Virus record (IMG/VR): IMGVR_UViG_3300025141_014356
Location: 1 to 47,194 of that record
Length of the DNA stretch: 47,194 nt
Source of the DNA: a virus
Direction: 5' to 3' (one strand)
Each line of letters starts with the position of its first letter. Position 1 is the first letter of the stretch. Positions 7,265 to 29,330 of this stretch are shown here, one piece after another. The translations under genes and the position numbers were made by a program. A model generated the notes under the pieces. The model searched no databases. It was given only the letters and a program-made list of their open reading frames with translations, and was not told the DNA's origin.

Positions 7265-7991
7265 AGAACGATATCAGAACCCCACTATAGGAGATAGTGT
7301 AAGATTAAAACTGTTTTCATTCAACTCAAATAACAGAACAAATTTTAATGCTGTAGATAAAGTAGAGATATATTTCTTAGACCCCGAAGAAGTAACTGAA
7401 GAGAATCCAGAAGGTAGAAGATTAGTAGAAACTCTGACGGGGGCTTCTATTGTTAATGTTGAAACAGGTCTATATCAAGTTACACTAACTCTGAGTGATA
7501 CAAAATACACGATAGGAGATTATGTGGATGTGTGGTATGCCTACATAGAAGCAAATGATGACCTTTCTATTGTGGAAAATACATGGATGATTTATCCTGC
7601 TTTGTTTTATACCAGTCCACGTCCAATTGTATATGATTTTTCATTTGCATTTAGGCCCAATAAGATAAGATTAGGCTCCAAACAATATATCATCATAGAC
7701 ATAACTCCTAATGTGACAAACGCCTCAGACTTAGCAAGATATTATGAAAATATAGCTATTGTTTCTCCTTTGAAAATATCTATAGAACAAGTATGTGGTG
7801 ATTGTCTTCCAGCAGAAGAAGACCTAAGAATAATTGCCGATGAAGTAGATGTAGAATTACGAGAAAAAGGAAGAGGATATTATTTCTTAGATACTGAAGA
7901 ATTAACGACTGGCCTATATGACATATGGTTTACTATGGAATTTGGTGGAAATACGTATGTTTCTAGTAAACAACAGCTTCAACTTTATTAA
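7254..7991 (+). CDS. Putative virion structural protein, beta-rich
   Basis: A 245-residue protein, AAAGGAAAG before the ATG. It is rich in beta strand with two repeated features: GLYQVTLTLSDTKYTIGDYV in the first half and GLYDIWFTMEFGGNTYVSS at the end, suggesting two Ig-like sandwich domains. A CGDC pair lies near residue 182. Its position between hub and late genes suggests a tail or head decoration protein. I do not recognise a named family. Confidence 0.65.
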   Translation: MATKERYQNPTIGDSVRLKLFSFNSNNRTNFNAVDKVEIYFLDPEEVTEENPEGRRLVETLTGASIVNVETGLYQVTLTLSDTKYTIGDYVDVWYAYIEANDDLSIVENTWMIYPALFYTSPRPIVYDFSFAFRPNKIRLGSKQYIIIDITPNVTNASDLARYYENIAIVSPLKISIEQVCGDCLPAEEDLRIIADEVDVELREKGRGYYFLDTEELTTGLYDIWFTMEFGGNTYVSSKQQLQLY

Positions 7992-8001
7992 AAGGTCAAA
8001 A

Positions 8002-8664
8002 ATGTCTGATTGTTTTATTATATCATTATATCCTGATTGTATATCCCAAAGTATGATAGATTATCAAAAAAAAGTTTTTGATAATCTTGATATACCCATT
8101 ACTCAAATTAAAGTAGATGGTCGTCTTGCGGCTGAAACTCATGCTCATGCTATGGGAGAAATTGTAAAGTCGTATAAATACGACTACTACATTTTTTTTG
8201 ATATTGATGCCATTCCTCTAAAAAAGGAATTAGTTAATTATATTTTACATTCAATTCGTGATGATGAAACACTTTTTGGTGTTGCCCAACAAAGCAACCA
8301 TATAATAAAACCAAATGGAACTTATGACCACATTTATGCCGGTCCTTCTTGTATGGGTTTTTCTAGTAAATTATATTCTAAACTTGGAAGTCCTTCTTTT
8401 GCTCCTAACCACCGTGGTGACACAGCCGAAGAATTGACATGGGAAACAGAATCAAAAGAATTGAAGTTAAAATTACTTTATCCAACACATAGCGTTGGAA
8501 AACCCATTTGGGATTTGGGTCATTTGCCTCCGTATGGTTTTGGTACTACATATGATGATATGGTATTTCATTGTTTTGGGGCTACGGGGAATAATGGAGT
8601 GACTAAAGGTTACAATATATTAGAAATGTTTGTTGAAAAGTGTAAAGAGGTTTTGGGAGAATAG
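8002..8664 (+). CDS. GT-A fold glycosyltransferase-like protein
   Basis: A 220-residue protein. ATG 8002 is chosen because AAAGG precedes it and it lies just after the previous stop. It begins with CFIISLYPDCISQSM and carries YYIFFDIDAIPLKKE near residue 70, a D-x-D motif (DID) of metal-dependent GT-A glycosyltransferases. YAGPSCMGFSSKLYSKLG and a late His (VFHCFGA) fit acceptor-side elements. The gene is convergent and directly adjacent to the internal head protein candidate. The substrate is unknown. Confidence 0.6.
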   Translation: MSDCFIISLYPDCISQSMIDYQKKVFDNLDIPITQIKVDGRLAAETHAHAMGEIVKSYKYDYYIFFDIDAIPLKKELVNYILHSIRDDETLFGVAQQSNHIIKPNGTYDHIYAGPSCMGFSSKLYSKLGSPSFAPNHRGDTAEELTWETESKELKLKLLYPTHSVGKPIWDLGHLPPYGFGTTYDDMVFHCFGATGNNGVTKGYNILEMFVEKCKEVLGE

Positions 8665-26992: not shown

Positions 26993-27021
26993 TTTACAAA
27001 CCAAAACAGATACCCTATTAT
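26993..27021 (+). promoter_or_regulatory. Sigma-70-like promoter for the leader-tRNA region
   Basis: TTTACA (26993-26998) and TATTAT (27016-27021) with exactly 17 bases between. Predicted start near 27028. It precedes the leader peptide, terminator and two tRNA genes. Confidence 0.65.
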
Positions 27022-27043
27022 ATGGTGAAGCAGGAAAAAGAAC

Positions 27044-27127
27044 ATGAACAAGAACACGTTTTATTTTAGTCTAAGCTTATTATCCTCATTGCTCCTGAGC
27101 AATGATAAAGGAACCGCTGTGGACTAA
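27044..27127 (+). CDS. Putative 27-residue leader peptide of an attenuator
   Basis: ATG 27044 has AGGA eight bases upstream. The peptide starts MNKNTFYFSLSLLSSLLLSN and ends DKGTAVD. It contains five Ser (three by AGT/AGC codons), six Leu and two Phe. The coding region folds on itself: TTTAGTC (27065-27071) pairs with GACTAAA (27122-27128) and TCATTGCTC/GAGCAATGA forms a nine-bp inner hairpin. A terminator follows 25 bases after the stop, then tRNA-Ser(GCT), which reads AGT/AGC. This is the layout of a translation-coupled attenuator, but function is inferred. Confidence 0.45.
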   Translation: MNKNTFYFSLSLLSSLLLSNDKGTAVD

Positions 27128-27152
27128 AGGTATAAAACACCAAGAGACGGGC

Positions 27153-27189
27153 AAAAGCCCCGAACCACACAACGGTTCGGGGCTTTTTT
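27153..27189 (+). terminator. Rho-independent terminator (possible attenuator) before tRNA-Ser
   Basis: A 13-14-bp stem AAAAGCCCCGAACC / GGTTCGGGGCTTTT with a seven-base loop and a T run. A competing hairpin GGGC-AAAA-GCCC (27149-27160) uses the same GCCC and excludes the terminator, as expected in attenuation. Confidence 0.85.
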
Positions 27190-27201
27190 GTTGTATATTT
27201 T

Positions 27202-27284
27202 GGAGAGTAAAGAGTTAAGGCGACTTCTCGGTTTGCTAAACCGAAGGTACTGAAAAGTATGTGTTTCGAGTACACTGCTCTCCG
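27202..27284 (+). tRNA. tRNA-Ser (anticodon GCT)
   Basis: Acceptor GGAGAGT/GCTCTCC, anticodon stem TCGGT/ACCGA with loop TTGCTAA, a long variable arm GTACT/AGTAT and T arm GTGT-TTCGAGT-ACAC. The long arm and GCT anticodon identify serine (AGC/AGT codons). The D stem is short, base 8 is not T and one T-stem pair is mismatched, so it is somewhat degenerate. CCA is not encoded. Confidence 0.7.
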
Positions 27285-27302: not shown

Positions 27303-27363
27303 GGTGTTATTTTTTATAAAAATAATTACACCTACCGAACGCCAATGCAACGCTAGGTTGCAT
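27303..27363. other. Two inverted repeats between the tRNA genes
   Basis: 27303-27332 is a near-palindrome (GGTGT ... TTTTTATAAAAA ... ACACC). 27345-27363 is ATGCAAC/GTTGCAT with a five-base loop. They may be RNA processing signals or recombination sites; no gene lies here. Confidence 0.5.
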
Positions 27364-27397
27364 TAAGTTTAAATAAATAAAAAGTGAATATTGCCAC

Positions 27398-27468
27398 GGT
27401 GATTGGGTGTGACGGTAGCACGGTTGGTTGAAACCCAGCAAGGACAAGTTCAATTCTTGTAATCACCA
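27398..27468 (+). tRNA. tRNA-Phe (anticodon GAA)
   Basis: Acceptor GGTGATT/AATCACC plus A, D arm GTGT/GCAC (one GU pair) with a GG-containing loop, anticodon stem GTTGG/CCAGC with loop TTGAAAC, four-base variable region and T arm ACAAG-TTCAATT-CTTGT. Only 71 bases, with G at position 8, so compact and slightly unusual. It lies at the edge where GATC frequency changes. Confidence 0.65.
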
Positions 27469-27548
27469 TTTAAAAATCAAACAGTACTATATAACAATAT
27501 TGATGTGAAGAGAGTAGTAATAATTCTCACTCATGATGGAGGAAAGTA

Positions 27549-28259
27549 ATGAAAAGACAACTAATACCAGAAGGTTATTATAATAGCAATACAAAGGACT
27601 GTGATGTATTTTGTGTAAAGGGCACAATACAAGATCAACAGAAATTCTATTTTAGACAAGACAGCGCTCCGGGTTGTGTCAATTCAGCAGGTGCTGATGT
27701 TAAATGGAGCATTACAAACAAACAAACATTCGATCATTGCATTTCAGTTACCGATACAGTCACTGTTGAAGCAGGTGCCGGAGGAGGATATCAGTATAGT
27801 GATAAGAACGGTAAAGGATTTTATGTTTCTGCTAATTACAACTATGGCGCTTCTGTAGAAGCAAAAACACAATGGGCTTATCATGACGATAGTGGAGATT
27901 CTATCTCGGCTTGGGGTGCGGTAAGTGCTGGTGTAGGAGGTAACGTAAGTGGTAGTGTTGGAGTATGGTATGACAAAGATGGCGACTTACATGTTAAGTT
28001 TGGTCTAGATGGGGTAATACCAGAATGTCCTGGTTTTGGACTCAATGCTACATTAAGTAAAAGTACAGTTAGTGAAGTGGGTGATGATACAACATATGCT
28101 GAACATGTAGCAGGTGCCCTTACTGGGAATACAGATGATGTTATTGCAGTAATTAATTCTCCAACGACGAAAACGATAGTTGACACCGTATCACACGTTG
28201 TTACTCATCTTCCTGATGAAGCTAAAAAGGATGTTGAGAAGATATTTGGTGGATTATAA
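27549..28259 (+). CDS. Hypothetical glycine-rich, beta-structured protein
   Basis: A 236-residue protein with GGAGGAAAG before the ATG. The N-terminal 60 residues contain four or five Cys (KDCDVFCVKG, PGCVN). The middle is Gly/Ser/Tyr-rich with alternating strand pattern (AGAGGGYQYSDKNGKGFYVS, SAGVGGNVSGSVGVWYDKDG), and the C-terminus is a short helix (DEAKKDVEKIFGGL). No signal peptide. It could be a virion decoration or a secreted protein; I do not recognise it. It carries the first GATC sites after the long stretch lacking them. Confidence 0.55.
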   Translation: MKRQLIPEGYYNSNTKDCDVFCVKGTIQDQQKFYFRQDSAPGCVNSAGADVKWSITNKQTFDHCISVTDTVTVEAGAGGGYQYSDKNGKGFYVSANYNYGASVEAKTQWAYHDDSGDSISAWGAVSAGVGGNVSGSVGVWYDKDGDLHVKFGLDGVIPECPGFGLNATLSKSTVSEVGDDTTYAEHVAGALTGNTDDVIAVINSPTTKTIVDTVSHVVTHLPDEAKKDVEKIFGGL

Positions 28260-28279: not shown

Positions 28280-29164
28280 TCAAGCTCTAAGTTTATTCCT
28301 TTGCTCCATTTCAATGTCGTCTATAGCGTATGGCTTGCCTTCTAAGGCAACTTCTAAGGCTCGAAGGTCTCTGATAAGCTTTTTTAAACCTTGTTTCTCC
28401 AGAGAGCAGGACGCATCTGTATGTCGGAATGATCTGTCATCTATAAAATGCCTTTCAAAGTATCTAGCTCCTAAAACATATGCTGCTGGTTCCATGGCGA
28501 TCCCATATCCATGATTTGAAAACCCTAATTTAAGATTTGAGCTAACACTTAGATTGTCGCATTTGGATTTAAATGTTGAAGACATCGTTGTCAGTTCTTG
28601 TAGGTAGAGTTTGTCGAATGGTACTGGATAGCCACTAGTACAGTGATATATGACTGTACGTTCTAGATTTTTGTCTTTTTCAAGTATATGAGTGAATAAT
28701 AAATCTCTTTCCACGTGGTTGGTCATGCCGGTAGAGATGTGAAGTCCGCATTTGCTGTTGTCGTATATGTAATCTATGAGATCTGTTCTATGGTTGCATG
28801 CACTAGGTATTTTTATGAAATCAGGTTGTAGTTCGACTATCTCTTTGGTAGATGTTTCGTCCCAGACTGATGTACTGTATACGATTCCTATTTTTTCACA
28901 ATATTCTTTGAGTACCGCATGTTGATCTTGAGATAATTCTAGATTAAGTCTGTGTTCTAGATAGGTATCTCCGTAAGAGAATGTTTGGTTTGGATGAGGT
29001 CTGTCCCACCATTCTCTAGCAACGCTTTCGTATGGATTTCGTTTTTGAAATTTAACTACATCTGCTCCAGCTTCTTTTGCTAGTTTAATGAGTTCTTTTG
29101 CTCTGTCTACTTTACCGATATGAGTCCCGCCGATTTCAGCTATTACTGTTGCGTACTTTTTCAT
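28280..29164 (-). CDS. neuB: Nonulosonic (sialic) acid synthase, NeuB-like
   Basis: A 294-residue protein. ATG 29164 is chosen because TTGGAGA precedes it at the right distance. NeuB features: VIAEIGGTHIGKVDRAKELI, then AGADVVKFQKRNPYE, IVYSTSVWDE, FIKIPSACN, HISTGMT and ILGFSNHGYG-like KLGFSNHG. The final ERHFIDDRSFRHTDASCSLE matches the phosphoenolpyruvate-site end. The enzyme condenses PEP with an N-acyl-mannosamine-type sugar. The antifreeze-like SAF domain of full NeuB (about 340 residues) is missing. It is transcribed opposite to the rest of the glycan cluster. Confidence 0.85.
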   Translation of the reverse strand: MKKYATVIAEIGGTHIGKVDRAKELIKLAKEAGADVVKFQKRNPYESVAREWWDRPHPNQTFSYGDTYLEHRLNLELSQDQHAVLKEYCEKIGIVYSTSVWDETSTKEIVELQPDFIKIPSACNHRTDLIDYIYDNSKCGLHISTGMTNHVERDLLFTHILEKDKNLERTVIYHCTSGYPVPFDKLYLQELTTMSSTFKSKCDNLSVSSNLKLGFSNHGYGIAMEPAAYVLGARYFERHFIDDRSFRHTDASCSLEKQGLKKLIRDLRALEVALEGKPYAIDDIEMEQRNKLRA

Positions 29165-29330
29165 ATTTGTCTCCAATCTATTTTTTTATCGGAATGTGAA
29201 AGATAATTCGATATAATATTTACTATGACAAGAATTAAAATAGCTATTTTTGATAAATAACAAAGGATATTCAGTACAGAATTAATAACTTAGTATTGTA
29301 TGGAACCTTAACAAAAAAAAAGGAGATATA

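Follow-up and report, generated by a model that had tools for sequence, protein, structure and literature searches.

At positions 26,993–27,284 of the 47-kb viral record IMGVR_UViG_3300025141_014356 (the window, 47,194 nt), a short open reading frame and an intrinsic terminator stand directly upstream of a tRNA-Ser(GCT) gene, which raises the question of whether a phage can control its tRNA genes by the supply of the very tRNAs that they encode. The order of leader, terminator and tRNA-Ser(GCT) described by a sequence-only reading of the window was confirmed, and a tRNA-Phe gene comes next; contig IMGVR_UViG_3300025141_000232 has a stretch identical to the window's. The locus is very probably a phage tRNA operon under trp-type, ribosome-mediated transcription attenuation, with the operon's own tRNAs as those sensed; the parts, their conservation and the match between leader and array come from sequence, and the switch comes from computation only.

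The leader in the window and in a sister phage

All parts of the leader lie on the plus strand. A promoter-like site (TTTACA-17-TATTAT, 26993–27021) has 10 of 12 matches and had been called a good promoter; both hexamers and their spacing are identical in the sister phage introduced below, and promoter-like sites were read by eye upstream of three further leaders of this kind, but a scan of the window found 13 such sites against 11.4 in shuffled sequences, so the site is weak taken alone. A Shine-Dalgarno-like AGGA (27032–27035) lies 8 nt upstream of the ATG (27044) of a 27-codon ORF (MNKNTFYFSLSLLSSLLLSNDKGTAVD, 27044–27127, stop codon TAA at 27125–27127), in agreement with the peptide and ribosome binding site noted earlier. 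Codons 6–19 (27059–27100) form a control run of 14 unbroken residues, all of them Phe, Tyr, Ser or Leu (FYFSLSLLSSSLLLS). The leader's five Ser codons (AGT, AGC, TCC, TCA and AGC) include the three AGT/AGC codons from which sensing of serine had been proposed; serine does belong to the control set, but this set is Phe/Tyr/Ser/Leu and not AGY serine alone. Runs as rich in these residues as this one were found in 10 of 14,016 ORF segments of the window, which counts against an attenuation reading.

The coding region contains a hairpin (UCAUUGCU-CCUG-AGCAAUGA, 27086–27105), and in stem 1:2 (27058–27138) a control-codon strand (~27058–27076) pairs with a stop-codon strand (~27114–27138). Just 5' of the stop codon is region 2, the candidate antiterminator strand (GAACCGCUGUG, 27111–27121), which in inverted repeat I8 is 91% complementary to region 3 (27168–27178), the terminator loop and the start of its 3' arm. 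A GGGC-AAAA-GCCC hairpin that had been set against the terminator does exist (27149–27160), and lies within the predicted antiterminator structure (region 2 with region 3), but the main antiterminator is the stronger pairing of 27111–27121 with 27168–27178, which had not been noted. The terminator (27153–27187) has 14 pairs followed by a U tract, and is succeeded by tRNA-Ser(GCT) (27202–27284, CCA not encoded) and tRNA-Phe(GAA) (27398–27468). The tRNA calls throughout are those of ARAGORN, some of them doubtful, and tRNA-Phe alone passed the Rfam gathering score in the window. That this array holds only Ser and Phe, though the leader also reads Tyr and Leu, counts against the attenuation reading. 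Between the two tRNA genes there is a hairpin (AATGCAAC-GCTAG-GTTGCATT, 27344–27364) that is present in the sister's array too. The start of the gene after the tRNAs (27534–27786) is 94.5% identical to phage contig L084, whose upstream DNA is unrelated, so that it looks like a swapped module; the window also has a NeuB-family gene on the opposite strand (28280–29176) and, near the tRNAs, a LAGLIDADG-type homing endonuclease (PF14528, 29331–30317).

The sister phage (IMGVR_UViG_3300035698_018317, 225 kb) was reached via an SbcC-like protein of 86% identity; its leader DNA is 85% identical to the window's and encodes the peptide MNTNTFYFSLSLLSSSLLLSNDKGTAVD. Counted by eye, the two ORFs differ by one codon inserted in frame, one non-synonymous substitution and four or five synonymous ones, depending on gap placement, and past the stop codon the indels are of 1 and 2 nt; the in-frame codon indel and the mostly synonymous changes support the leader ORF being translated. 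ARAGORN reads the sister's array as Ser(GCT), Ser(CGA), Ser(TGA), Phe, Tyr, Tyr, Leu, Ser(TGA) and Ser(GGA), the amino acid of the 74-nt Ser(TGA) call being doubtful, and Rfam adds three more tRNAs; by eye, two of these are Phe(GAA) and the third is a Leu carrying an insertion. The amino acids of this array (Ser, Phe, Tyr and Leu) are the residues of the leader run. Two 106-nt tRNA genes of the sister (L120:2518–2623 and L131:5187–5292; Rfam 41.8 and 37.2 bits) resemble tRNA-Leu into whose anticodon loop a short hairpin has been inserted, in the manner of a small intron, and tRNA matches of 117–127 nt occur in some other records.

The self-folding coding region of the earlier reading agrees with the hairpin predicted at 27086–27105; the whole leader RNA (27028–27195) folds at -53 kcal/mol with a z of -5.06 (shuffles as good, 0/200); without the terminator z is -2.03 (8/200), hence the strong fold is largely due to the terminator. 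Such a fold and terminator, with a gap of only 14 nt from terminator to tRNA-Ser in the window and only indirect evidence for translation of the leader, might also be expected of a self-contained small structured RNA that has a promoter and terminator to itself, in which case the ORF would be incidental and the tRNAs would be transcribed from another promoter of their own or through constant readthrough. We consider this quite improbable, as window and sister differ by a whole-codon indel within the ORF and by indels of 1–2 nt after it, and as a non-coding RNA would leave unexplained the match of leader residues to arrays in the unrelated leaders described below.

Phe/Tyr/Ser/Leu leaders in more distant phages

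Conservation of the layout in relatives, proposed at the outset as a check, was found in the sister, in LR756511 and in the IMG/VR contigs L138 and L141. LR756511 (595 kb) has a terminase 51% identical to the sister's, and its leader (VHTFSASLRLSSYSLSSLLYSNVRRGT) and terminator precede an array of 11 tRNAs that serve only Ser, Leu and Tyr; the other tRNA region examined in this genome is mostly for different amino acids, among them Phe, and contains one odd Ser call. The hairpin TTGCTnnnnAGCAA is common to LR756511, L138 and L141 and is kept in the sister with an extra codon; CGGGnnnnnnCCC of the GGGC-AAAA-GCCC hairpin likewise occurs in LR756511, L138 and L141. It was a pattern built on the shared hairpin that found the leaders of L138 and L141. 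In L141 the leader (VNKFSYQLSSLSSSLLFSNDRGGCVR) precedes a small Peptidase_S24-like gene and 16 ARAGORN calls, of which 15 are for Tyr, Leu, Phe or Ser and one is a doubtful 91-nt 'Thr'; in L138 the leader (VDKFFYQLSSLSSSLLFSNVWGGCVR) precedes the same small gene, here split by an insertion element, then a tRNA-Ser(GCT) and the contig end. The presence of this small gene between leader and tRNAs in two of the five Phe/Tyr/Ser/Leu leaders counts against the attenuation reading. The Peptidase_S24-like gene between the L138/L141 leader and the tRNAs (L282:2229–2528) has relatives in a number of huge phages, among them LR756511 and phage G; the insertion within it (L138:8740–10760) carries a MerR-like recombinase and a TnpB-like gene (names by eye), and the gene is intact in L141.

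The five leaders have 26–28 codons and 56–72 nt from stop codon to U tract, and share a predicted fold in which the control-codon strand pairs with the stop-codon strand around an inner hairpin, followed by the terminator. All six Ser codons are used in LR756511 and in L141, and many Ser and Leu codons across the leaders, a diversity that is at most suggestive when compared with genome codon usage (single-test P 0.035 to 0.41) and carries no weight in the argument. At ~288000–291500 of LR756511 (L291), repeated tRNA-like elements with the motifs CTTGGA..GTCCCC and ACTTACAAAC lie near atypical tRNA calls and are possibly tRNAs with longer insertions.

Searches for further members gave little beyond these. 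A peptide-degenerate DNA pattern matched two contigs in viral_contigs, both already known, and the hairpin pattern TCNTCRTTGCTNNNNAGCAAYG matched 31 viral contigs, three of which have the leader (the window's twin L082, L138 and L141). The same pattern matched at least 119 stretches in genome_contigs, with the leader layout absent from the DNA examined among the matches listed; the hairpin-plus-CGGG pattern matched eight contigs, these being L082, L138, L141 and five without tRNAs in the available DNA. Searches with neighbouring proteins added none: that with the HAD/nucleotidyltransferase protein kept 80 loci, and a tRNA was nearby in 0 of the 28 relatives scanned for tRNAs (L003–L030). A tblastn search with a leader peptide gave no match, not even the expected similar record, and so carries no information.

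Leaders and tRNA arrays for other amino acids in huge phages

Records of huge phages, mostly of metagenomic source, were scanned for an intrinsic terminator <400 nt before a tRNA with an ORF of 10–40 codons ending 0–75 nt before the terminator. In LR745206 this rule identified the leader HKNFSKSHKWF before His/Phe/Trp/Lys tRNAs, SSSRSSS before Arg/Ser, YESYYEE before Glu/Tyr, ISIAVIGNGAGAI before Ile/Gly/Met, MNLNMTMNLTLNVVNITLCNIR before Asn/Arg/Leu/Val/Ile/Thr/Met, PQPQDQDP before Pro/Asp (Gln comes next) and QQIQQQQINQ before Gln tRNAs. LR756501 has one leader for Trp/His/Phe/Lys/Ser, one for Met/Gln and one for Leu, the last with all six Leu codons before a Leu-only array. LR756502 and LR756504 yielded further leaders of kinds not met in those two genomes, namely IIRMRIIR with Arg/Ile/Met, LSLCLSLSLSL with Leu/Ser/Cys, QQYKQYQPQY with Tyr/Gln and IAIVEIAVIGGAEEGV with Glu/Ala/Ile/Val/Gly. 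A Shine-Dalgarno motif is absent from most leaders of LR745206 and LR756501. Under the same rule LR745208 and Rctr197k gave no candidate leader and LR756508 a single, non-matching candidate, and a convincing leader is absent from many tRNA clusters, including all those found in these three records. An Arg/Thr/Val/Ala cluster in LR756501 (L302, reverse complement, ~7500–8500) has a terminator upstream, but a cognate leader was not found there, and it is a useful internal negative.

The records examined contained 29 units, for each of which the longest ORF was taken. The summed match of leaders to their own arrays over these units came to 102.3 z units, a value reached in 0 of 50,000 free permutations (mean 4.4, maximum 44.4) and in 0 of 50,000 within-genome permutations (mean 12.5, maximum 66.7), with the units not all independent because LR745206 and LR756502 share related leaders. 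An earlier version with 13 units reached 50.2, where 200,000 permutations gave no more than 37.7. Taken singly, LR745206, LR756502, LR756504 and LR756501 each had a true pairing that no permutation drawn exceeded (1 in 24 for LR756501, which has only four units). Eight of the 29 units had a z of 2 or less and all were kept in the test; one of these, the LR756501 Arg cluster, is clearly not a leader, and several match only if tRNAs beyond the next leader are counted, which the test did not do. The window was left out, its leader being the same as the sister's, and L138 and L141 form no unit because their tRNAs lie >400 nt from the terminator. Eight control phages with 149 tRNAs, comprising phage G, Atu_ph07, crAss001, RaK2, immuto, phiCbK and KVP40, among which we found no cultured phage with a matching leader, and the uncultured cr85_1, gave nine candidate ORFs, none with p <0.01 and none matching, and their five units behave as chance.

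These matches in unrelated leaders, together with the masked folding described below, support the earlier suggestion that leader codons may sense the downstream tRNA. They also bear on the notion that the leader is a working hydrophobic micropeptide (a toxin, lysis or membrane peptide) that the tRNAs merely adjoin: the window peptide is indeed hydrophobic and rich in Leu and Ser, but elsewhere the leaders found at this position are rich in Gln, in Arg and Ser, or in Asp, Pro and Gln, and it is the tRNA match that is conserved and not the peptide, making this explanation hardly credible. A less remote alternative, though still an unlikely one, is an attenuator that senses a general slowing of translation (host takeover, the stringent response or antibiotics), with the codon match reflecting local codon demand. 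Any ribosome stall in the run would give the same predicted state, and several leaders would sense many amino acids at once; however, the match is specific to a leader's own array, even within a single genome, and a leader with every Leu codon before an array of tRNA-Leu genes only is hard to reconcile with a general signal.

The predicted switch and its meaning

Under the attenuation that we favour, RNA polymerase would start at ~27027 and a ribosome would translate the leader. With plentiful charged Phe, Tyr, Ser and Leu tRNAs, the ribosome would reach the stop codon and cover region 2, the terminator would form and no tRNAs would be made. Were any of these tRNAs scarce, the ribosome would stall in codons 6–19 and cover strand 1, region 2 would pair with region 3, the terminator would fail and the array would be transcribed; the new tRNAs would then relieve the stall, a negative feedback. 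Because the codons in the leader are those decoded by the downstream tRNAs, the loop would be self-limiting, running from shortage through stall, transcription and supply to relief. Without a ribosome, termination is the predicted state in window and sister. We infer leader translation, coupling of transcription to translation, and charging as the signal; the shortage may arise from a lack of amino acids, heavy phage demand or loss of host tRNAs, including through tRNA-cleaving defences.

We modelled this by masked folding, a crude procedure that ignores kinetics, in which a 30-nt ribosome footprint is kept unpaired and the terminator arms are fixed. In the window, a ribosome at codons 5–17 gave 10–11 antiterminator pairs, falling to ~0 from codon 20 on and to 1.3 with no ribosome, so that region 2 is predicted to be freed only while the ribosome occupies the run. 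Sister and window alike gave ~9–11 pairs at most ribosome positions in codons 5–17, and the sister's antiterminator was lost (0 pairs) by codon 21 and hardly formed without a ribosome; in both, region 2 (GAACCGCUGUG or GAACUGCUGUG) pairs with CACAACGGUUC. In L138 and L141 region 2 (GGGGAGGCUG) pairs instead with the 5' arm of the terminator, and for L138 the antiterminator is predicted without a ribosome too, which counts against a switch. Region 2 of the LR756501 Leu leader (GAUUGGGU) copies the terminator's 3' arm. In LR745206 the pairing is predicted to be lost at F17/S18 in the His/Lys/Phe/Trp leader, E16/G17 in the Glu/Tyr leader and D19–M21 in the Pro/Asp/Gln leader, two of these three regaining pairing near the stop codon in the model.

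For 17 of the 21 matching leaders, the predicted switch-off is no more than two codons away from the end of the run, and for the other four it comes 5–13 codons early; the mean distance of 2.33, against 4.80 when permuted, was matched in 0 of 20,000 permutations. Shuffling region 2 gave a switch as large in 2/100 cases for the window, 1/100 for the sister and 0/100 for L138, but in 36/100 each for LR756511 and L141, which counts against a switch in these two. In a second shuffle test, excluding four rows (the window, the sister and two others) whose 'after' points fell inside the run, the observed value was reached in 0–3 of 40 shuffles in eight leaders and in 7 of 40 in the Leu leader, and the LR756501 Arg candidate had no switch. 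Thermodynamic folding favoured the completed terminator of the window, so antitermination there would have to be kinetic.

Compared with known systems, the window has the short ORF with a ribosome-binding site, the terminator and the regulated genes of trp-type attenuation; the control codons are cognate to the operon product, as judged by the permutation tests, and folding predicts exclusive 1:2, 2:3 and 3:4 pairings whose placement would let ribosome position choose between them, weak against shuffles for LR756511 and L141. Like the trp, his, leu, phe and thr attenuators, these leaders combine a short ORF of cognate codons, a region 2 near the stop codon, alternative pairings and a terminator; unlike them, they would regulate phage tRNAs and not amino-acid biosynthetic operons and would sense up to about six amino acids through many isoacceptor codons, and the partner of region 2 in the window is the terminator loop together with the 3' arm. 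None of the Rfam amino-acid leader families (His, Leu, Thr, Trp, Phe) was found at gathering score in the window (Phe_leader 19.6 and Thr_leader 20 bits, against a gathering score of 55), and the T-box covariance model had no match there at gathering score and none up to an E-value of 10. T-box riboswitches respond to tRNA charging and control termination, as proposed here, but they bind the uncharged tRNA themselves and do without a leader peptide. The pheM-type leader of bacterial pheST is an attenuator of a translation component that regulates a tRNA synthetase and not tRNA genes. To our knowledge, leader-peptide attenuation has not been reported for tRNA genes. We found no description of attenuation of phage tRNA genes in the open-licence literature searched, which is weak evidence of absence, and the main text of a huge-phage paper (PMC7162821) lacks 'attenuat', 'leader peptide' and 'terminator'. 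The mechanism itself is known; what appears to be new is its application to phage tRNA genes, through leaders that each cover several amino acids and with several operons in one genome.

Ser, Leu and Tyr tRNAs are the bacterial tRNAs with long variable arms. The Septu defence is reported to cleave the variable loop of tRNA-Tyr (PMC13096335), and a link between such cleavage and the Phe/Tyr/Ser/Leu grouping is speculation. Phage-supplied tRNAs are described as replacing host tRNAs lost to nucleases (PMC10264068, PMC11555353); in the portions of these papers that we saw, a regulated supply goes unmentioned, whereas here the shortage itself would induce the supply. We tentatively suggest, as a serious possibility, that huge phages run a tRNA thermostat for each amino acid, with their tRNA genes divided among operons, each governed by an attenuator whose leader samples the codons of just those tRNAs, so that loss of particular host tRNAs, including to cleaving defences, would induce exactly their replacements.

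It has long been asked what phages need tRNA genes for and at what point they use them. Leaders in which the sensed codons are spelled out make the matter testable, in that each array would be switched on when its own tRNAs run short, and such leaders would offer ready-made multi-codon sensors of tRNA supply. Attenuation of this kind would also give a reason for the grouping of tRNA genes by amino acid in huge-phage genomes, and it suggests that phages can respond to the loss of host tRNAs by inducing a supply of their own.
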